Positions 21,096-59,630 of a stretch of DNA of 64,000 nucleotides are shown piece by piece. Below the pieces are notes generated by a model that was not told the DNA's origin, ran no database searches, and saw only the letters and a program-made list of their open reading frames with translations. The translations under genes were made by a program, and so were the position numbers. The stretch is from Qipengyuania flava (lineage in GTDB: Bacteria; Pseudomonadota; Alphaproteobacteria; Sphingomonadales; Sphingomonadaceae), in contig NZ_CP080410.1 of NCBI RefSeq assembly GCF_019448255.1, positions 1,674,001-1,738,000 on the forward strand. Direction: 5' to 3'. Positions within the stretch are counted from its first letter, which is position 1; each line of letters begins with the position of its first letter.

Positions 21096-21127
21096 TTAAC
21101 CATACGCGCCTACCGCTCGCTAACCAT
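21096..21127 (+). promoter_or_regulatory. Two CtrA-type half-sites upstream of the tad genes
   Basis: TTAACCAT at 21096-21103 and CTAACCAT at 21120-21127, 24 nt apart, 67-98 nt before the first Tad gene. TTAACC half-sites are bound by the alphaproteobacterial cell-cycle regulator CtrA, which controls pilin genes in Caulobacter. No full TTAA-N7-TTAAC box is seen here. Confidence 0.4.
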
Positions 21128-21193
21128 GCAAATTTCCTATCGAGTAATGCCGCTTGGCTAATGCAGCGTGGAACAAAACCCTGTGAGGACACC

Positions 21194-22834
21194 ATGCTGA
21201 CCAAGCGGATCTGCAATCTCTTCGGCAACCTGAAGAGCGACACCAACGGCAACGCCATGATCCTGATGGCGCTGGGTATGCCGGTGCTGATCGGAAGCTC
21301 GGGCATGGCTGTCGACATGACCCAGTGGTACATGTGGAAGCGCGAACTGCAGTATGCGGTCGACCAGGGCGCCATTGCCGGCGCCTGGGCCCGCGCCGAA
21401 ACGGCGACGCAGGCGACCTATCAAACACGCGCGGACCAGGAATTCAGCGCAAACCTCGGTGCGCTCTCGGGCAAGACCACCTCGCCCGTCGTCGCGCTTG
21501 CCGATTACAACGGCGGCACGCAGAACAGCGTGACGGTAACCTCAACCGTGACCGTCAACCTGCCGTTTTCGCAGGTCGTCATCAGCAAGCCGACCACGAT
21601 CACTGCGAACGCCCAGGCGACGTTTGAGGCAGCAACCAATTGGACGACGTGCCTCCTCGCGCTTGACACTTCGGCATCGGGCGCGCTGACGATTGGCGGT
21701 ACGGCGTCGGGCACTGTCACCTGCGGCGCAGGCACACTGTCGACCTCGAGCACGGCCATCGTGAAAAATGGTAATCCCAGCGTGACGCTCGGCGATATCA
21801 TCGCTGCCGGCGGGATCGAGTCCGGTCTCGCGGGCAACGGCACGATCCGCGAATATATCAATAACCTCAGCAATCCGTATGATGGCCTCACCCCGCCGCA
21901 GAGCACGTCGCCGCAGACCTACGGCTGTGTGACGACGACGCAGACGGTCCAGACTCCGAACGGATCGACAACGACTACGGCCAATGTCGTCCAGACCGAC
22001 GACGTCGCCTACACCTACTGGCAGGGCAAGAACCAGAACAACGCAAAAACTCAGGTTAGCTATTCGGGTGCCGCAGCTGACACCTCGCAGGACACCGACC
22101 TCGGCAGCCAGACTGTCGCGAATGACGCGAGCGAGGGCGAAACCCGGGTAATCAGCGAAACGTCCGAGTGGACAGGCCGTAACTGGCCGGTTTCCGGTTC
22201 AAAGAACCAGGAAATTTACGAGATGAAGACCACGACCATCTCCTACACATATACGGGCGTTTCGCAGTCCGGTGGCTACGACACCGAAGTGGTCGAGACG
22301 ACTTCGGCAACCCTTAATCCCGGCACCTACAACAACGTCACCATCAGCTGCGACACCTTCTTCAATCCGGGCGTCTACACGATTACCGGGGTGCTGGATT
22401 TCGGGCAGAACCACACCGTCACGGGCGACGATGTGATGCTGGTGCTGAGCGGTTCGGGTTCGGAACGCTTCAAGCTCAATGCCCAATCGGTCGTACGCAT
22501 GAGCGGCATTTCCGAAAGCAGGCTCATCAACACCTACAGCGTCGCAGCCGAAGACGCCGCGAGAATGGCCGGCATGCTCATCTTCGATCCAAACTCGACG
22601 GCCGATGTCAAGATCAACGGCGGCGCGGATATGCAGCTGGAAGGCATTCTCTACATGCCCGGCCGCAAGGCCAAGTTTAACGGCAACTCCTCGGTATCGG
22701 GCCAGTGCATGATGCTCGCGGCCGGCCAGCTGGAGTTTACCGGAACGAACGATCTCGACAGCTTCTGCGTGCCGACCGGCGCGACCTCCTTCGATATCGG
22801 AGGCAACACCATCTCCATCCGTCTGGTGACCTGA
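21194..22834 (+). CDS. TadG-like Tad-domain protein (Flp pilus-associated)
   Basis: 546 residues. The N-terminus is a pseudopilin-like segment: GNAMILMALGMPVLIGSSGM after a short polar leader, followed by DMTQWYMWKRELQYAVDQGA, the standard start of TadG/TadE-like proteins. Residues about 65-330 are Thr/Ser/Asn-rich. Residues about 370-530 form repeated short strands (PGVYTITGVLDFGQNHTV, GADMQLEGILYMPGR) like the polymer-forming C-terminal domain of many Tad proteins. Likely anchored in the inner membrane facing the periplasm. ATG at 21194 has TGAGGA upstream. Its stop overlaps the next tad gene (TGATG). No tadA, cpaB or rcpA gene is in the window. Confidence 0.8.
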   Translation: MLTKRICNLFGNLKSDTNGNAMILMALGMPVLIGSSGMAVDMTQWYMWKRELQYAVDQGAIAGAWARAETATQATYQTRADQEFSANLGALSGKTTSPVVALADYNGGTQNSVTVTSTVTVNLPFSQVVISKPTTITANAQATFEAATNWTTCLLALDTSASGALTIGGTASGTVTCGAGTLSTSSTAIVKNGNPSVTLGDIIAAGGIESGLAGNGTIREYINNLSNPYDGLTPPQSTSPQTYGCVTTTQTVQTPNGSTTTTANVVQTDDVAYTYWQGKNQNNAKTQVSYSGAAADTSQDTDLGSQTVANDASEGETRVISETSEWTGRNWPVSGSKNQEIYEMKTTTISYTYTGVSQSGGYDTEVVETTSATLNPGTYNNVTISCDTFFNPGVYTITGVLDFGQNHTVTGDDVMLVLSGSGSERFKLNAQSVVRMSGISESRLINTYSVAAEDAARMAGMLIFDPNSTADVKINGGADMQLEGILYMPGRKAKFNGNSSVSGQCMMLAAGQLEFTGTNDLDSFCVPTGATSFDIGGNTISIRLVT

Positions 22835-51543: not shown

Positions 51544-51553
51544 GGAGACACGC

Positions 51554-52840
51554 GTGGCCGACAAGCAGGCAACCCTCGATCTGGGCGGACAGACCCAGGA
51601 ATTTCCCGTGCTGCAGGGCAGCGTCGGCCCCGATGTGGTCGATATCCGCAAGCTCTACGGCGCGACCGGCAAGTTCACCTACGACCCGGGCTACAAGTCG
51701 ACCGCCAGCTGCGAAAGCGCGCTGACCTATATTGACGGCGAAGCCGGTGTCCTGCTGCACCGCGGCTACCCGATCGGCCAGCTGGCCGAGCATTCGAGCT
51801 TCATGGAAGTCAGCTACCTGCTGCTGAACGGCGAACTGCCGACGGCGGACGAGCTGGAGACTTTCAACGACACCATCACCCGCCACACGATGGTCCACGA
51901 CCAGCTGCGCCAGTTCTACCAGGGTTTCCGCCGCGACGCGCACCCGATGGCGATCATGTGCGGCGTGGTCGGCGCCCTGTCGGCCTTCTACCACGACAGC
52001 ACCGACATTTCGGATCCCGAGCATCGCAAGATCAGCTCGCACCGCCTCATCGCAAAGATGCCGACGATTGCGGCCATGGCGTACAAATACGCCGTGGGTC
52101 AGCCGTTCCTTCAGCCGAAGAACGACCTCAGCTACACCGGCAACTTCCTGCGCATGACCTTCGGCGTTCCGGCCGAGGAATACGAAATCCACCCCGCCAT
52201 CGAAAAGGCGATGGACCGGATCTTCATCCTTCATGCCGACCACGAGCAGAACGCCTCGACCTCGACCGTGCGCCTTGCCGGTTCCTCGGGAGCGAACCCG
52301 TTTGCCTGTATGGCGGCCGGCATTGCCTGCCTGTGGGGCCCCGCGCACGGCGGCGCCAACGAAGCGGCGCTCAACATGCTGCAGGAAATCGGCTCGCCCG
52401 ATCGCATCCCGCACTACATCGAGCGCGCCAAGGACAAGAACGACCCGTTCCGCCTGATGGGCTTCGGTCACCGCGTCTACAAGAACTACGACCCGCGCGC
52501 GACGGTCATGCAGAAGACCCTGCGCGAGGTGTTCGAAGCGCTCAACGTCAACGACCCGGTCTTCGAAACCGCGCTGCGCCTTGAAGAGCTCGCTCTCAAC
52601 GACGACTACTTCAAGGAAAAGAAGCTGTTCCCGAATGTGGACTTCTACTCGGGCATCATTCTCAACTCGATCGGTTTCCCGACGACCATGTTCACCGCGC
52701 TCTTCGCCCTCGCCCGCACCGTCGGCTGGGTCGCGCAGTGGAACGAGATGATCTCGGATCCCGCACAGGTCATCGGCCGCCCGCGCCAGCTCTACACGGG
52801 CCCGACCGAGCGCGACTACGTGCCGATCGAAAAGCGTTAA
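51554..52840 (+). CDS. gltA: Citrate synthase
   Basis: 428 residues, type II (hexameric, NADH-sensitive family). Active-site His residues in [15 protein letters not shown] and [14 protein letters not shown] and the [14 protein letters not shown] block; the Asp is in FPNVDFYSG. Entry enzyme of the citric acid cycle. Start is GTG at 51554 with GAGGAG 7 nt upstream. The gltX-gltA pair is usual in this order. Confidence 0.97.
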
Positions 52841-52937: not shown

Positions 52938-54374
52938 TCAGTCGTCGTCTCGGAATTCGGGCATTTTGGGACCCCCGCGCGGTTCCTTTCGCAAATCGTC
53001 CGCTGCCGGCACCGAAAGGGTGAAGCGTGCGCCTTGCCCCTTGGCGCTTTCCACCGTCAGGTCGCCGTCCATCGCGCGGGCAATCCGGCGCGAGATGTAG
53101 AGCCCAAGACCCGATCCGCCATCACCGCTGCGACCCAAGCGCTCGAACTTCTCGAACACCCGCTCCTGCTGCTCGGGCTCAAGCCCGTGACCCTGGTCGG
53201 CTACGGTAATCAACGCACGGTTGCCGATCCGGTCGAGCCGGATCCAGACCTGGCTGTCCTCGGGCGAATACCTAATGGCGTTGCCCACGAGGTTAAGGAG
53301 GATCTGCAGCACGCGGCGGAATTCCGCGATCGCAAGCTGGCTTTCGCCTTCCGGCGGGGCGACCAGCGTGATTCCTTTCTCGCGCGCCCGCACACCTAGG
53401 ATCCCGCAAGCGCGCCGAGCCACGTCGGCCAGCTCGATACGGTCGGGTGCGGTCGCAAAGTCGTCCGATTCCACCACTTCGAGATCGGACAGGTCGTCGA
53501 TCAGCGCGAGCAGGTGCTGCGCAGCTGTAGCGATGTCGGCGGCGTAGGAGCTGTATTCGTCCGCCAGCGGTCCGGCGAGCTTGGTGCGGATCGTCTCGGC
53601 GTTGGCGATGATGCGGTTGATCGGCTGGCGCAGGACCGGCGTCAGATCGCGCCCGAAGGAAGGCCCTTCGCCCTGCTCGTCCTGGTCCTCCACCGGCGAA
53701 CCCGACAGCGGGCTTTCAGCCGTGAGATAGAGCACGAAGCCCGCGCTGCCGGGCTGCGGCTGGCCGAGCGGTTCGAGATGCGCGGTCCATTGGCGACTCG
53801 ACCCGTCGATCTCGCACTTGGCCCCGTCGAGCAGGCGCCAGTGAAGCGGTTGCTGGTGCGTGTTGCCCGGCAGGCGCACGAAGTCCGTCCACGGCTTGCC
53901 GACATTCGCAAGCGCCGTGGCGGCAAACTCGCCGAGGTCGCTTGCCTCGGTATCGACCGAGAGCAGGCGCTGGTTGGAATCGAGCCGCGCGGTGCAATCG
54001 GCAAGGTGGCGGTTGATCTCCACGCGCCGCCGCGCCGTCTCGATCTCGTTTTCCGGCGGAAGCGGTTCGGTATTCCAGCTCACGACGTCGATCGAGCAGC
54101 CCCGCCCCTCGTCGCTGCCCTCGGCGTCGGGCGTGATCTCCACCCAGGCGGTAATGCGGTTCTCGCCGTCGACCGCTTCGAACTGGCGGGCGAGCCGCAG
54201 GCCGAAACGCTGCGCTTTCTCCACCAGCGCAAGCAGCTCGGGGATGGCAAGGCGTGTACCGATCGCACCACCACAGGCGTGCTGCAGGCGTGCCAAAACT
54301 TCGTCAGCGGAGACAAGCTTGCCTTCGGCATCGACCGTGGCGCTGGCCAGGTAGCGGGTTCCTACGCTGGCCAT
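52938..54374 (-). CDS. Histidine-kinase-like protein lacking the phospho-accepting His
   Basis: 478 residues. The C-terminal half is a normal HATPase: N-box LLNLVGNAIRYSPED, DQGHGLEPEQQERVFEKFERLG, and GGSGLGLYISRRIARAMDG. In the dimerisation helix, where kinases read HELRxPL, this protein reads PVLRQPINRI, with Pro246 where the His should be. The N-terminal 225 residues are PAS-like and show no membrane segment. It cannot autophosphorylate at the usual site, so it may be a phosphatase, an allosteric partner or a scaffold, like the Tyr-bearing DivL of Caulobacter. Starts 1 nt after the preceding gene, so the pair is coupled. Confidence 0.8.
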   Translation of the reverse strand: MASVGTRYLASATVDAEGKLVSADEVLARLQHACGGAIGTRLAIPELLALVEKAQRFGLRLARQFEAVDGENRITAWVEITPDAEGSDEGRGCSIDVVSWNTEPLPPENEIETARRRVEINRHLADCTARLDSNQRLLSVDTEASDLGEFAATALANVGKPWTDFVRLPGNTHQQPLHWRLLDGAKCEIDGSSRQWTAHLEPLGQPQPGSAGFVLYLTAESPLSGSPVEDQDEQGEGPSFGRDLTPVLRQPINRIIANAETIRTKLAGPLADEYSSYAADIATAAQHLLALIDDLSDLEVVESDDFATAPDRIELADVARRACGILGVRAREKGITLVAPPEGESQLAIAEFRRVLQILLNLVGNAIRYSPEDSQVWIRLDRIGNRALITVADQGHGLEPEQQERVFEKFERLGRSGDGGSGLGLYISRRIARAMDGDLTVESAKGQGARFTLSVPAADDLRKEPRGGPKMPEFRDDD

Positions 54375-54375
54375 A

Positions 54376-55338
54376 TCAGGCGGCTCCTACCGGTGTGGAT
54401 TCGGCCAGCATCCGGCGGGCTTCTTCGAGCGGCATGCCTGCAATCTCACGCAAGGGCACGGCCTGCGGGTTGAGGCGTAGCACCTGGCGTTCCACGGCTG
54501 CGGTATCGAGCCCGGCAGCCCTGAGGCCCAGCGCTAGCCGGGCGGTCTGCTGGTGATGGGTCGAGAGCACTGCGGCGACGCGCGATTGACCCGAACGTGC
54601 CGCAAGCGCGGAAAGGAACAGGGCCGTGCCCGCCTGATCGATATCGAGCGCGCGCTGGCCCTCGCCGCCCATGCCGGCAACGACCCGCGCGAGCAGCGAC
54701 TGGCGCCCGGCGCCTTCGTCATAGGCATTGCGCAGCTTGGCCTCGGCGCGGATCATCGCATCGGAGCGAAGCTGGCCGCTGTAGGCGCGCCAACCCATCA
54801 GCAAATAGTGGAACAGGTCACCGGGAAGCTCGCTCAGCGGCAATTCCATCCGCCGCTGGGTCTGGGCGAAGCGGGCCTGCGCGGTGAGCGAGGCCATAGC
54901 CGCGCTCGCAAGGCTGCTGTCGTCCGACGCGATGAGTTCCTGGACAACCGGCGAAAGCACCGGATCGATGCCGTACTGGACTTCGAGCCGTTCAGTCAGC
55001 TGCCATTCCAGCGCCAGCGCGTGGCAATGGGCAAGCAGCGCCGGGCTGCCGAAGAAATGCTCCGCCAGCGCCTCGCCATGACGGTCGGCAAAGGCTTCGC
55101 GCCCGGCCTGGCCGGCGGCTTCTGCCTGTGCGCGCAGGACCTGCCAGGCCAGATGGTGGCACATGCCGCGGATGCGCGCGACGATCTCGTCGCTGAACAA
55201 CGAATGGTCGGGCGTTGCGAGCAGATGCGACAGGATCGGCCCGATGCGCGCAAGCGTCGCGTTCCCGCGCGCGAGCGCGTCGCGAAGGCTTTCCTTGTCG
55301 GCCTCGGCCGAAGGGGATGCAGCGTCAGGCATCGGCAT
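54376..55338 (-). CDS. Helical protein of unknown function upstream of the His-less kinase
   Basis: 320 residues, almost all helical and Ala/Leu-rich, no signal peptide or membrane segment. Recognisable blocks for searching are MCHHLAWQVLRAQAEAAG (about 58-76), ELPGDLFHYLLMGWRAYSGQ (about 168-188) and STHHQQTARLALGLRAAGLD (about 258-278). I recognise no family; a repeat or HEAT-like fold is possible. It is coupled to the kinase gene (one base between stop and start). A near-match CtrA box lies 24-39 nt before its start. Confidence 0.65.
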   Translation of the reverse strand: MPMPDAASPSAEADKESLRDALARGNATLARIGPILSHLLATPDHSLFSDEIVARIRGMCHHLAWQVLRAQAEAAGQAGREAFADRHGEALAEHFFGSPALLAHCHALALEWQLTERLEVQYGIDPVLSPVVQELIASDDSSLASAAMASLTAQARFAQTQRRMELPLSELPGDLFHYLLMGWRAYSGQLRSDAMIRAEAKLRNAYDEGAGRQSLLARVVAGMGGEGQRALDIDQAGTALFLSALAARSGQSRVAAVLSTHHQQTARLALGLRAAGLDTAAVERQVLRLNPQAVPLREIAGMPLEEARRMLAESTPVGAA

Positions 55339-55361
55339 GGTCCGGTGGTAGCATCGGCATG

Positions 55362-55377
55362 GTTAATCGCCGGTTAG
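55362..55377 (-). promoter_or_regulatory. CtrA-like box (one mismatch) before the unknown protein/kinase operon
   Basis: Minus strand reads CTAA-N7-TTAAC against the consensus TTAA-N7-TTAAC, continuing CAT to give the half-site TTAACCAT. It overlaps the stop codon of the upstream gene and ends 24 nt before the start at 55338. Confidence 0.4.
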
Positions 55378-56570
55378 TCCCGCGGCTCTGCCGTGAGAAA
55401 AAGCGTAATCAGCACGGCAAGCGACAAAACCGCCACGACAGGCTGCGTGACCCCGAAGAAAACCGCCGGAATAAGGAGCGCAATCAGCGCAATGCGATCG
55501 GCGTAGGTGCGCCGCCATTTGCTGGCGCTGATCCGTTCACCGAGGTGGAGCAAGCCCAGCAGGACGGCGGGCACGAAGAGGCGCAACCAGCCCATCTCTT
55601 CAGGCGATGCGAGGGCGATCAGCACAAGGAGCAGCGGGTCGAGCAGGATCGCGATTGCCTGCGCCAGCGCTGGCACGCGTGGGCGCACCTGTCCGGCGCT
55701 TGAAACACGGCGGACCACCTCTTCCATGGCGAACAGCAGGGCGCTGAGCCCGGCAAGGCCAAAGCCGGGCAATGTCCATCCGCCCAATGCGAGCGAGAGA
55801 CCGGAAAGACCCGCCAGCGCCGAGGAGAGCGACAGTACGCGCGGCAGGTTCCCGCCCATCGTATCCTGCGCAAGCCGCGCGCCCATGCGCTCGGCTATCG
55901 CGAGGCCCGGCGCGGAAAAGGGCGCCACATTGGCGTGCCCGGCGACCCAGCTGCGTTCGCGTGTGGCCAGCTCCTCAGGGGACGGGTCACGCAGCCACAC
56001 GGTCTCGTCGAGCAACCGCGTTTCGAGCGGATGGGTCCTCACCCCCGACTGGAGGGCAATGCGGAGCAGTGCCGATGGCGTGTCGACATCTTCGGGAAGC
56101 TGCGCGAGTTGCTCGACCGCAGTGCCGCGCACCAGCAGCGCTCCAGCCCATGCGAAGTGCGCATCGATACGCTCGTAACCACGTGCAACCGCCGGGTCCT
56201 CGGGAAACACCAGCACGCAGGGCTTTGCTAGGTGTTTGAGGATCGCGTCTTCGTCGGGCAGGACGCCGGGCGCCAGCACCAGCAACTCGTCCTGCGCCGA
56301 CACCAGCCCCGACAGCTTGCGCGCTTCGCGAAGGGCAATGAACCGCGCGCCGGCCGCCTCTGCGCGGTGCTGGAGGTCCATCACCTCGCGTCCGACCGTG
56401 TTGGCAAGGCAGGCAATGGTTTCGCAACCGGCGGCCAGCGCCATGTCGAGCTGGCGTTCCACCAGGCGCGCACCGGCAATCGATCGGTACGGCGCGGGGA
56501 CGGTGCGCGTATCAGCTTGGCTATCGAGCACGGACAGCAGGGCGGCGCGCACGCGGAACTCCGGTTGCAA
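55374..56570 (-). CDS. Two-domain membrane protein with a nucleotidyltransferase-like N-terminus
   Basis: 398 residues. Residues about 1-150 look like a degenerate GT-A/nucleotidyltransferase domain (SIAGARLVERQLDMALAAGC, as in sugar-phosphate nucleotidyltransferases), but the G-rich NTP loop at the very start is missing. Residues about 225-395 hold four to six hydrophobic segments (LSSALAGLSGLSLALGGWTL, LLDPLLLVLIAL, AVLSLAVLITLFLT). The arrangement recalls fusions of an NTP-transferase with a CDP-alcohol phosphatidyltransferase, but I do not find the Asp-rich motif of the latter. Function unknown. Confidence 0.6.
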   Translation of the reverse strand: MQPEFRVRAALLSVLDSQADTRTVPAPYRSIAGARLVERQLDMALAAGCETIACLANTVGREVMDLQHRAEAAGARFIALREARKLSGLVSAQDELLVLAPGVLPDEDAILKHLAKPCVLVFPEDPAVARGYERIDAHFAWAGALLVRGTAVEQLAQLPEDVDTPSALLRIALQSGVRTHPLETRLLDETVWLRDPSPEELATRERSWVAGHANVAPFSAPGLAIAERMGARLAQDTMGGNLPRVLSLSSALAGLSGLSLALGGWTLPGFGLAGLSALLFAMEEVVRRVSSAGQVRPRVPALAQAIAILLDPLLLVLIALASPEEMGWLRLFVPAVLLGLLHLGERISASKWRRTYADRIALIALLIPAVFFGVTQPVVAVLSLAVLITLFLTAEPRD

Positions 56571-56637
56571 CGGTTGGGACGCCTACCGCTTTAGGGCCGT
56601 GTTGCCGCAATCGCCAAGCGTTGCGGCGGGTTTACCC

Positions 56638-56934
56638 TCAGCCGAGCGCGCCTACGAACGCGTCGATCCGCTTAAGAACCGTGGGCTCTCCCGGTGCGGC
56701 AGTCAGCGCTTCATCGGCAAGCTCAATGAGCTCGTCGGCATGGAAGCTTGCAGCAATGGCGTGCAGTTTGCCAGCAGCCAATTCCCAGTTCCCGTCGCAG
56801 CGCGAGCGGCGAAGCAGATCGAGCTGGCGTGCGCAGCTGTCGGCAAAGGCCACGCGCAGTTCGTTCTTGAGCGACAGATCGTCGCCCGCTGCGGTCGCCA
56901 ATGCGGCATCGAATCCGGTAGAGTGATACGCCAT
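56638..56934 (-). CDS. Orphan HPt-domain protein (histidine phosphotransfer)
   Basis: 98 residues, essentially one HPt four-helix unit. The helix AAGKLHAIAASFHADELIEL matches the HPt pattern HxLKGxxxxxGxxxL, with the candidate phospho-accepting His58; Ser and Phe replace the usual small residues of the loop. Flanking helices LKNELRVAFADSCARQLDLL and ELADEAL fit. It would relay phosphoryl groups between receivers. Start: ATG at 56934 (a GTG lies two codons upstream). A full CtrA-type box lies 24 nt upstream, shared with the divergent coiled-coil gene. Confidence 0.68.
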   Translation of the reverse strand: MAYHSTGFDAALATAAGDDLSLKNELRVAFADSCARQLDLLRRSRCDGNWELAAGKLHAIAASFHADELIELADEALTAAPGEPTVLKRIDAFVGALG

Positions 56935-56957
56935 GGCCACAGACTGGCACCAAAGCG

Positions 56958-56973
56958 GTTAATTGTGGTTTAA
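56958..56973. promoter_or_regulatory. Full CtrA-type box between the HPt and coiled-coil genes
   Basis: Minus strand reads TTAA-ACCACAA-TTAAC, an exact match to the Caulobacter consensus TTAA-N7-TTAAC. It is centred in the 71 nt divergent gap, 24 nt before the HPt start and 33 nt before the coiled-coil protein start. Confidence 0.55.
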
Positions 56974-57005
56974 GCCCAAGGCGTTTGGTGGTAGTTTTTG
57001 CAGCT

Positions 57006-59630
57006 ATGAGAAAGCGTCCCCTTATCAAGGCTGTCGATCCTTCGACCGACCAGGAACCTGCGAAAATCGATTTTTCCGAAGAGGTTATCAAAGAAACCTC
57101 GGAAGTGGACGAACTCGTCTATGAAGAGGAATGGGAAGAAGATGCACAGACCGCACGGCGGTTTGGTTGGGTCGTTCCGACGCTTGCCATCCTCGCGATA
57201 GCGGGCTGGACCGGTTTCTACGGCTGGGCCCATCAGGCCGAAATCCTTGCGCGTCCCACCCCTGCCGAATGGACTGGCCTGGTTACGCAGTGGGCTATTC
57301 CCGTGCTGCTCGTGGTGTCGCTTTGGCTGCTCGCCATGCGCAATTCCACGCGCGAGGCAAAGCGCTACGCCGAAGTCGCGCAGTCGCTCTCCGCACAGTC
57401 TGCCGAGCTCGAGACGCGGCTCGTGACCGTCAATCGCGAGCTGAGCCTCGCGCGCGAGTTCCTGGCAACGCAGACGCAGGAGCTCGATTATCTCGGGCGC
57501 ACGGCCACCGATCGCCTTTCCGAACACGCTGACCGCTTGCAGTCGCTGGTTGTCGCCAATGGAGAGCAGGTCGACGCCATCGCCAGTGTCAGCGTTACAG
57601 CGTTGGAAAACATGGACAAACTGCGGGACAACCTTCCCGTGGTGGCGAATTCCGCCAAGGATGTGTCGAACCAGATCGGCGGCGCCGGCCGCGAGGCACA
57701 GGCACAGCTTGATGACCTCATTTCCGGCTTCGAACGCCTGAACGAATTCGGTGCGGCAAGCGAACGGCAGGTGGGTTCACTGCGCAAGCGGGTCGATGCC
57801 GCTCTGGAAGCCTTCTCGGCGCAGGCGGACAAGCTGGGCGATGTGGCCGAACAGCGCTTTGCCGAGTTGCGCGCCGGAAGCGATGCCTTCCGCAGCGACC
57901 TCGACAGCCGCGAAGTGGAAGCCCTCACCTCGATCCGAACGCGCTTCGAAAGCCTGCGCACCGAACTGGCCGAGACCGACGCCGCGGCCGCGCGCGAACG
58001 CGATGCCGCAATCGAAAGCCTGCGCAGCCGTCTTGATGCGGTGCGCACCGAAGCGGAAACCGCCGCGACGACCATCCGCGATGGCGAAGCCCATGCCCTC
58101 ACCGCCTGGAACTCCCAGGTCGAAGCCATGCAGGAACGGCTGAGCGAGGCGGTCGCCGAGATCACCCGGATCGACGAAGCCGCCCTCGCGTCTGCACAGA
58201 CCAAGCTGAAAGCGCTGTTCGAAGAGGCGCAACGCGTCGATGCCCAGCTGGTCGAGCGCAACCGTCTGTTTGATCAGGAAACCGGGCGCCGTCAGAGCGC
58301 ATTCGCCGAAGCAGAGGAAAGCGCGCAGACGCGCCTGCGGGAGCGGCTCGATGCGCTGGACGAAGCCATCGCCGAACGCCGCGCGGCGCAGGCCGAGCAG
58401 CTTTCGGCCATGGCCGCCGAAGGCGACGAACTGGGCGAACGCATTGCCGCGCTTGGCACGACCTTCGAGACTATCTCCGCCCAGGGCCAGGAAGCGCGCG
58501 GCGCTCTTTCCGAAGGGGTCGAAGCGCTCAACGCGAAGCTGATCGAGAGCCGCGAGGCGCTAGACGGCACGGACATGGCGGTCTCGGCCCTGACCGACGC
58601 CAGCGTGCGCCTGCTCGAACTGATCCAGGCCAGCGCGAAGCACAGCCGCGATGACCTCCCCGTGGCCATGGAAGCGAGCGAATCGCGCCTCGCCGATATC
58701 GAGCGGCGCGCCGAAGAGGTGAAAGGCCTCCTCGAAGAGGCGAAGACAGCAGGAGAGGCGGTCACTGCGAGCATGGACAACGCCGAGGCACGTAGCCGCG
58801 AGGCAATGGCCGGTGTGGACGACTTCCAGGCTCGCTTCGGCGAGACGGCCGCGGCTCAGGTGGATGGGATCGAACGCCTGCGCGCCAGCGTGGCTGCCTT
58901 GGGCGACGAAAGCGATGCGGTATCGAAGCGCGCGCAGGGCGAACTGCGCGAGGCGATCGAAGTGCTGGAGACCAGCGCCCGCAGCGCCCTCGCCGCTATC
59001 GAAACCGAACAGGCCGATCGCATCGCAAAGATCGCGGACACCGTCGGCGAACAAAGCGCTGCCGCCATCGACAAGGCGCTGCGCGAACACACCGAAGAGG
59101 CCATCGCCACGCTGGACAAGGCCACCGAACGTTCCAGCGAAGCGGGACGGGAAATCACGCGCCAGCTGCGCGACCAGCTGGCCAAGGTCAACGAGCTCAC
59201 CGGCAATCTCGAAAGCCGCATCGCGCACGCGCGTGAACGGGCGGAGGAGAATGTCGACAACGACTTCAGCCGCCGCGTTGCGCTGATCACCGAAAGCCTC
59301 AATTCAAACGCAATCGATATCGCCAAGGCGCTGTCGACCGAGGTGACCGACACGGCCTGGGCAAGCTATCTGCGCGGCGACCGCGGGATCTTCACCCGGC
59401 GCGCGGTACGCCTGCTCGACAACACCGAAGCGCGCGAGATTGCCGAGCTTTACGACAGCGACCACGATTTCCGTGAGCACGTCAGCCGATACATCCACGA
59501 TTTCGAAGCGATGCTGCGGACCATGCTGTCCACCCGCGATGGCAACGCGATGAGCGTAACCCTGCTGTCGAGCGATATGGGCAAGCTCTACGTGGTACTC
59601 GCGCAGGCTCTCGAACGCCTGCGCCAGTAA
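57006..59630 (+). CDS. Large membrane-anchored coiled-coil protein
   Basis: 874 residues. An acidic N-terminal cytoplasmic part (VDELVYEEEWEEDAQ, near 35-49) is followed by two hydrophobic segments (about 53-72 and 93-110). Residues about 115-750 are nearly continuous heptad-rich coiled coil, very rich in Ala, Glu and Arg. The last 110 residues look like a folded domain (FTRRAVRLLDNTEAREIAEL, HDFREHVSRYIHDFEAML). No ATPase or enzyme motif. Similar large anchored coiled coils act as polar or division scaffolds in alphaproteobacteria, but I cannot assign one by sequence. ATG at 57006 chosen over a GTG/TTG further up. Confidence 0.75.
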   Translation: MRKRPLIKAVDPSTDQEPAKIDFSEEVIKETSEVDELVYEEEWEEDAQTARRFGWVVPTLAILAIAGWTGFYGWAHQAEILARPTPAEWTGLVTQWAIPVLLVVSLWLLAMRNSTREAKRYAEVAQSLSAQSAELETRLVTVNRELSLAREFLATQTQELDYLGRTATDRLSEHADRLQSLVVANGEQVDAIASVSVTALENMDKLRDNLPVVANSAKDVSNQIGGAGREAQAQLDDLISGFERLNEFGAASERQVGSLRKRVDAALEAFSAQADKLGDVAEQRFAELRAGSDAFRSDLDSREVEALTSIRTRFESLRTELAETDAAAARERDAAIESLRSRLDAVRTEAETAATTIRDGEAHALTAWNSQVEAMQERLSEAVAEITRIDEAALASAQTKLKALFEEAQRVDAQLVERNRLFDQETGRRQSAFAEAEESAQTRLRERLDALDEAIAERRAAQAEQLSAMAAEGDELGERIAALGTTFETISAQGQEARGALSEGVEALNAKLIESREALDGTDMAVSALTDASVRLLELIQASAKHSRDDLPVAMEASESRLADIERRAEEVKGLLEEAKTAGEAVTASMDNAEARSREAMAGVDDFQARFGETAAAQVDGIERLRASVAALGDESDAVSKRAQGELREAIEVLETSARSALAAIETEQADRIAKIADTVGEQSAAAIDKALREHTEEAIATLDKATERSSEAGREITRQLRDQLAKVNELTGNLESRIAHARERAEENVDNDFSRRVALITESLNSNAIDIAKALSTEVTDTAWASYLRGDRGIFTRRAVRLLDNTEAREIAELYDSDHDFREHVSRYIHDFEAMLRTMLSTRDGNAMSVTLLSSDMGKLYVVLAQALERLRQ

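Follow-up and report, generated by a model that had tools for sequence, protein, structure and literature searches.

A candidate polarity locus in Qipengyuania flava: a TipN/GPR-type coiled-coil protein beside histidine-less signalling proteins

Introduction

The window analysed here is a stretch of 64,000 nt of the genome of Qipengyuania flava (contig NZ_CP080410.1, positions 1,674,001 to 1,738,000), a member of the family Sphingomonadaceae within the class Alphaproteobacteria. It contains five neighbouring genes for a kinase-like protein, proteins of 320 and 398 residues, a small protein related to histidine-containing phosphotransfer (HPt) proteins and an 874-residue coiled-coil protein, here called the scaffold. 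From the sequence alone, the original prediction had described these genes together with two TTAAC-containing sites of the CtrA type as a polarity or cell-cycle module; the list of open reading frames (ORFs) and motif scans bear it out on the five genes and on both sites. The locus raises the question of what the scaffold is and which of its neighbours and sites belong with it. With a little more than even confidence we lean towards a polarity locus with a TipN/GPR-type scaffold, a CtrA-type promoter and His-less HPt and kinase partners.

The coiled-coil protein and its relatives

The C-terminal domain of the scaffold is homologous to that of Caulobacter proteins of the TipN type. A protein search detected relatives of the 874-residue protein in 59 of 61 genomes, among them that of the window, and matches in other families are concentrated towards its C-terminal part. 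Its last ~120 residues, used as a profile (alignment A1), match 79 of 79 genomes of the family, once each, and 162 of 389 genomes of the class; in the matches listed for the class, frame length runs from about 190 to 2750 codons. A single match per genome was also obtained in 55 of 99 genomes of a Caulobacter-type family (sampling label f53), which was picked for its ChpT, the nearest relative of the solved C. crescentus ChpT 4fmt (67% in genome G324, among the matches listed). One f53 protein as query recovered 24 named loci, 21 of them titled Caulobacter, and among the latter is an 882-residue protein of C. vibrioides DSM 9893 (L176). This protein is read as TipN because of its species, length and architecture and the single match per f53 genome. 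The lengths of TipN and GPR are given as 882 and 2,115 residues in an excerpt of PMC13170164, and GPR is described as resembling TipN in an excerpt of PMC8546619.

Profile-profile comparison of the C-terminal alignments of the window's family and the Caulobacter type gave a probability of 96.9 (E 2e-10), and control comparisons with unrelated alignments gave 0.1 to 0.6. The C-terminal profile picks out 18 of the 19 Caulobacter proteins and none of 19 reversed or 380 shuffled sequences; the sole protein of the 19 without a match (L191) is frameshifted. A hydropathy scan of the scaffold yielded one passing segment (90-111), and a second near 55-75 was judged by eye only. Proline-free stretches of 341 and 322 positions mark a long coiled-coil or helical region. 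The model of the C-terminal domain is poor (predicted local distance difference test, pLDDT, 61), and a PDB profile search with this domain returned nothing convincing. On these comparisons the protein is best read as a TipN/GPR-type polar scaffold, the single such protein of its family.

Histidine-less neighbours

Neighbouring genes were compared in 35 loci of the genus, namely the window and 34 others drawn from 36 further genomes, from which G013 and G029 were removed (contig ends). These genomes are related, and counts across loci are not independent. Gene order is preserved across the 35 loci, with the 320-residue gene missing from one (L046), and in 4 of 6 loci of other genera. Over all 41 loci the kinase gene is present in 39, the 398-residue gene in 39 and the 320-residue gene in 38. 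The pseudo-HPt gene, as the 98-residue gene is called here, occurs in 22 of the 35 loci of the genus, in all 6 of the other-genus loci sampled first and in 34 of 40 further family loci. In 20 of those 22 loci of the genus, 68-72 nt separate it from the scaffold start; the automatic start call was wrong in two of the 22.

Judged by sequence, the pseudo-HPt and kinase-like proteins are descendants of phosphate-relay proteins that lack the phosphate-carrying histidine. For the former, 0 of 62 family proteins have His in the phospho-His column, compared with 19 of 19 canonical HPt proteins. The original prediction had named an orphan HPt protein; the His seen in it is not the phospho-acceptor, the aligned column being Gly in the window. 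A ChpT-like phosphotransfer step in a working relay is unlikely because none of the 62 proteins keeps the residue. The window protein has no Pfam match, and two family members reach 13.9 and 15.8 bits against PF01627, below the cut-off of 24.6. Canonical HPt genes, divergently oriented and on the upstream side of the scaffold gene, were found in 11 of the 18 loci of the same order whose flanks are long enough, and in 8 of 39 from other parts of the class. Three of three tested exceed the PF01627 cut-off, and the best solved match of their profile is ShpA of C. crescentus (E 3.6e-17; next 4e-6). The pseudo-HPt profile matches the canonical one with a probability of 97.7 (E 1.6e-12); searched itself against solved structures in the PDB, it gave no ShpA match and nothing convincing. 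The canonical genes are 131 to 1255 nt from the scaffold start, and strict adjacency outside the family is not claimed because several of them sit 0.4-1.3 kb off.

A single-sequence model (pLDDT 86) gives the pseudo-HPt protein an HPt-like four-helix fold. The first 11 rows of a Foldseek search with this model are HPt proteins, though at E 0.75 or worse, and the best VIA Z is 9.7, a score that helical bundles may reach by chance. A conserved RCD[AG]NW motif occurs in the 62 proteins of the pseudo-HPt family and is lacking in the canonical relatives; it may form a new binding surface.

The kinase-like protein was predicted to be His-less, and Pro occupies the phospho-His site in 39 of 39 sequences, with the ATP-binding motifs retained. 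It is probably an ATP-binding regulator unable to autophosphorylate at that site. The accompanying comparison with DivL fails by residue, and no PAS family was found by Pfam at E 1. Among solved structures 4q20 (DivL) is matched with E 2.4e-16, and eleven other solved sequences score higher.

Scaffold promoter and CtrA

The exact dyad TTAA-N7-TTAAC occurs once in the window, as predicted, at 56958-56973 inside the 71-nt gap before the scaffold gene (shuffle mean 0.01; 1 of 100 shuffles has one). Loss of the boxes in relatives was named in the original prediction as evidence against it; both are conserved. The box 1 pattern, GTTAA-N5-9-TTT, precedes the scaffold start in 33 of the 35 loci of the genus, against a shuffle mean of 0.23, and in 30 of 46 other family loci (0.44), the latter a lower-quality count. 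Start codons in loci without an HPt gene were taken as the first ATG, and in L292 by fallback. Of the 13 genus loci that lack the HPt gene, 12 retain the pattern, as do 21 of the 22 that have it. Since the box persists where the HPt gene is missing, it belongs to the scaffold gene, and an assignment to the HPt gene was rejected.

In the loci read, a GRTANAWT-like sequence follows 13-14 nt past the second half of box 1. The final 28 nt ahead of the start contain TGNTA in 33 of the 35 loci of the genus and in 37 of the 46 from the rest of the family. By the -35/-10 consensus, the second half of the box and the GRTANAWT-like sequence look like a -35/-10 pair, with a predicted transcription start at or just before the scaffold ATG. 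GANTC near the -10 element (5 of 35 and 7 of 46 loci) was considered and dropped.

The genome encodes a CtrA (L213), recognised by its sequence, whose receiver domain, the part compared, matches solved CtrA 4qpj with E 1.2e-54. GTTAAC, TTAACC and GGTTAA occur upstream of this gene. ChpT is encoded elsewhere, at 888.5 kb, as the only PF10090 match of the genome. Outside the family, 16 of 19 intervals that separate a canonical HPt gene from the scaffold gene contain half-sites (shuffle mean 8.6; reached by 0 of 200 shuffles), and 1 of the same 19 contains a dyad, a count reached by 70 of 200 shuffles. An excerpt of PMC9437464 gives the CtrA site as TTAA-N7-TTAA and includes pilus assembly among the roles of CtrA. 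Binding of CtrA at the two boxes is likely.

Box 2 and related sites

The 8-mer TTAACCAT was predicted to occur less than once by chance; it is found at 21096 and again at 55359, in both cases upstream of a gene, as the prediction had it. Shuffled sequence holds 0.31 copies on average, and at least two copies occur in 4 of 100 shuffles. The second copy is part of box 2, a one-mismatch site before the gene pair for the 320-residue and kinase-like proteins. All 34 genus loci compared have TAA-N7-TTAAC there, as do 3 of 4 loci of other genera (shuffle mean 0.05), with a spacing of 7 in all 37; the exact 8-mer is found in 13 of 38 loci and the full TTAA-N7-TTAAC in 0 of 34 genus loci. The leading TAA of this site in the window doubles as the stop codon of the 398-residue gene, and free evidence is therefore limited to the spacing, the TTAACC and the C that follows TAA.

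The first copy lies 57 nt upstream of a TadE/G-like Flp-pilus gene (window 21096-22795, + strand; PF13400, E 4.6e-9). Across the genome (2.85 Mb scanned), TAA-N7-TTAACC occurs at 13 places, compared with 7 for the reversed control. The 13 include both boxes described here and two places at the ate gene; another precedes a spore-coat-U-type gene, and another, with TAA-N7-TTAACCAT, precedes the TadE/G gene L310 (22.4 bits, cut-off 22.3). The site upstream of the arginyl-tRNA-protein transferase-like (ate) gene, GGTTAAGAGGGTTTTAACG (L003 1499-1517, ~978.5 kb in the window's own genome), is near the family form of box 1, and this dyad recurs in several genomes of the genus, among the matches listed.

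Locus layout

The features are listed in Table 1. No Pfam or NCBIfam match was found for the 398-residue protein of the window, and one of eight orthologues of its gene is weakly MobA-like (E 0.013). DUF2336 is matched by one of 11 orthologues of the 320-residue protein (E 4.6e-4); a literature search on this family found nothing. A citrate synthase gene (window 51548-52840) adjoins the locus, as it does in 35 genus loci and 4 of 6 other loci. In Caulobacter an insertion in citA (citrate synthase) was recovered by a screen in a tipN cpdR double mutant, according to an excerpt of PMC7083601; the parallel is probably a coincidence.

Table 1. Features of the candidate polarity locus (window coordinates)
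Feature	Position	Strand	Basis or remark
Kinase-like gene, 478 aa	52938-54374	-	ORF; Pro at phospho-His site, ATP-binding motifs present
320-aa gene, weakly DUF2336-like	54376-55338	-	ORF and orthologue search
Box 2, CTAA-N7-TTAACCAT	55359-55377	-	TAA at 55374-55376 doubles as stop codon for the 398-aa frame
398-aa membrane protein gene	55374-56570	-	ORF
98-aa pseudo-HPt gene (predicted ShpA-type HPt fold, phospho-His absent)	56638-56934, ATG 56934	-	ORF, alignment, profiles, model
Box 1, minus-strand reading TTAA-N7-TTAACC	56958-56975		GTTAA 56958-56962 (+); -35-like TTTAAGC 56969-56975 (+)
-10-like GGTAGTTT	56990-56997	+	14 nt past the -35-like element; read from sequence
Putative TipN/GPR-type coiled-coil scaffold gene, 874 aa	57006-59630, ATG 57006	+	ORF, profiles, hydropathy
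Conserved C-terminal domain of the scaffold, ~120 aa	59268-59627	+	Alignment A1

Proposed model and alternatives

In the proposed model the scaffold would be anchored in the inner membrane near its N-terminus, followed by a long cytoplasmic coiled coil and the conserved C-terminal domain, and would most likely mark or organise a cell pole. Its transcription would start from the conserved promoter, whose TTAAC half-site, read as GTTAA along the coding strand, lies ~46 nt ahead of the ATG. The second half of box 1 appears to overlap the -35-like element, which is the geometry of an activated CtrA promoter; the scaffold would therefore be produced at one stage of the cell cycle. Instead of carrying phosphate, the pseudo-HPt protein may serve as a binding partner of the scaffold, of a kinase or of a receiver domain, and the second putative CtrA-type box would front the 320-residue protein and the Pro-for-His kinase-like protein.

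Several observations weigh against this model. No record names L176 as tipN, and the narrower C-terminal alignment of the genus gives a probability of only 86.4 (E 4.7e-6). Full-length profiles align with the TipN type at the end only (probability 21.6), and the relation of the scaffold to TipN is therefore a distant one. The pseudo-HPt gene is missing from 13 of the 35 loci of the genus and from 6 of the 40 further ones in the family, and an HPt gene lies beside the scaffold gene in 0 of 8 f53 loci. The box 1 pattern is lacking in 16 of 46 other family loci, and the TTAA dyads at box 1 vary in spacing (21 N7, 4 N8 and 1 N6; one locus has two). Half of box 2 coincides with a stop codon. No TTAA-N7-TTAA box was found upstream of nine Caulobacter tipN loci. 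Neither the genome (5 places, 10 for the reversed pattern) nor the set of 38 genomes of the genus (186, 312 reversed) shows enrichment of the exact CtrA dyad; G617 was counted in the latter survey alone. TTAA-N7-TTAAC and TTAA-N7-TTAA were rejected as over-represented strings, showing no excess over controls, and the argument for CtrA for that reason rests on conservation and not on counts. GTTAA-N4-6-GGTTT, tried as a regulon motif, was uninformative (5 places, 3 for the control). The predicted polarity or cell-cycle module holds in part: polarity is the best reading, with a TipN/GPR-like protein and with CtrA and ChpT encoded elsewhere, but enrichment of the CtrA dyad does not back it. Joint action of all five genes as one module, with the HPt gene missing so often, is not supported.

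It is quite possible, though somewhat less likely than not, that the block of the kinase, 320-residue and 398-residue genes is an unrelated neighbour and that just the pseudo-HPt and scaffold genes belong together. The block is missing from 2 of 6 other-genus loci with long flanks, bar one weak kinase match, and it is HPt genes that lie near scaffold genes in other families and orders; the preserved gene order in the genus and in most loci of other genera, and the TTAACC-type boxes at both units, speak for a common locus.

A plain sigma-70-type promoter at box 1 (-35 TTTAAG, -10 GRTANAWT) with an upstream element or another regulator, serving the same scaffold gene without CtrA, is considered rather unlikely. 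It would account for the missing enrichment of the exact dyad and for the variable spacing of the half-sites, the second of which is often TTTC or TTTA. It does not account for the conserved position of GTTAA (-44 to -48 in 32 of the 33 pattern-bearing loci of the genus, -44 to -47 in 26 of 30 in the rest of the family) or for TTAACC-type sites also at box 2, the ctrA gene and pilus-type genes.

More doubtful still is a general envelope or lipid-linked scaffold that shares the C-terminal domain but has changed its function and has no polarity role here: the scaffold matches the apolipoprotein family PF01442 (E 1.5e-7, under Pfam's cut-off) and, weakly, SMC profiles, its relation to TipN is distant and an excerpt of PMC7327166 allows a different role for distant RgsE homologues, but TipN, GPR and RgsE, all the members found with a published role in the excerpts consulted, act at a pole.

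The polarity locus may also be read more broadly, as a tentative proposal: a ShpA-type HPt protein and a TipN/GPR-type scaffold could form an old, widely kept alphaproteobacterial polarity unit, with a phosphorelay controlling the state of the pole marker, and in the window's family this unit would have been rebuilt as a "dead" relay, with His-less HPt and kinase proteins acting by binding alone and with timing by CtrA. The scaffold belongs to a known kind; literature searches found no description of its occurrence in this family, of the link to HPt genes or of the missing His, and no publication joining TipN, Sphingomonad and CtrA was found. RgsE homologues are reported from Rhizobiales, and more distant ones from Emcibacterales and Rhodospirillales, in the excerpt of PMC7327166. 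A TipN-like pole marker is proposed for a whole family in which none was found described. The locus offers a testable link between cell-cycle signalling and cell polarity. Because gene neighbourhood ties the scaffold to ShpA-type HPt genes, two questions become testable: whether a phosphorelay acts on TipN-type scaffolds, and what replaces the phosphate where the His is gone.

Comparison with known systems

The window's HPt-like protein differs from ChpT in having no PF10090 match in Pfam. DivL carries Tyr in place of the phospho-His and contains PAS domains. The window kinase resembles it in a kinase fold with the His replaced and differs in its Pro and in the lack of a PAS match. ShpA, the HPt protein of the ShkA-ShpA-TacA relay, is the best match of the canonical HPt proteins near scaffold genes, which in turn are related to the pseudo-HPt protein; the latter differs in lacking the His, and its profile fails to match ShpA. 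GPR of Agrobacterium and RgsE of Sinorhizobium are likewise membrane-anchored coiled-coil proteins with apolipoprotein- and SMC-like profile matches, as excerpts of PMC8262873 and PMC7327166 describe them; they differ in their length of ~2,100 residues, and for this type the C-terminal domain was tested in class genomes with frames of similar length. A tag at the C-terminus disturbed GPR, according to PMC8262873. TipN of Caulobacter differs in that homology is confined to the C-terminal domain and that its gene has no adjoining HPt gene or TTAA-N7-TTAA box; it is like the scaffold in its similar length, N-terminal hydrophobic region, long proline-free helix and homologous C-terminal domain.

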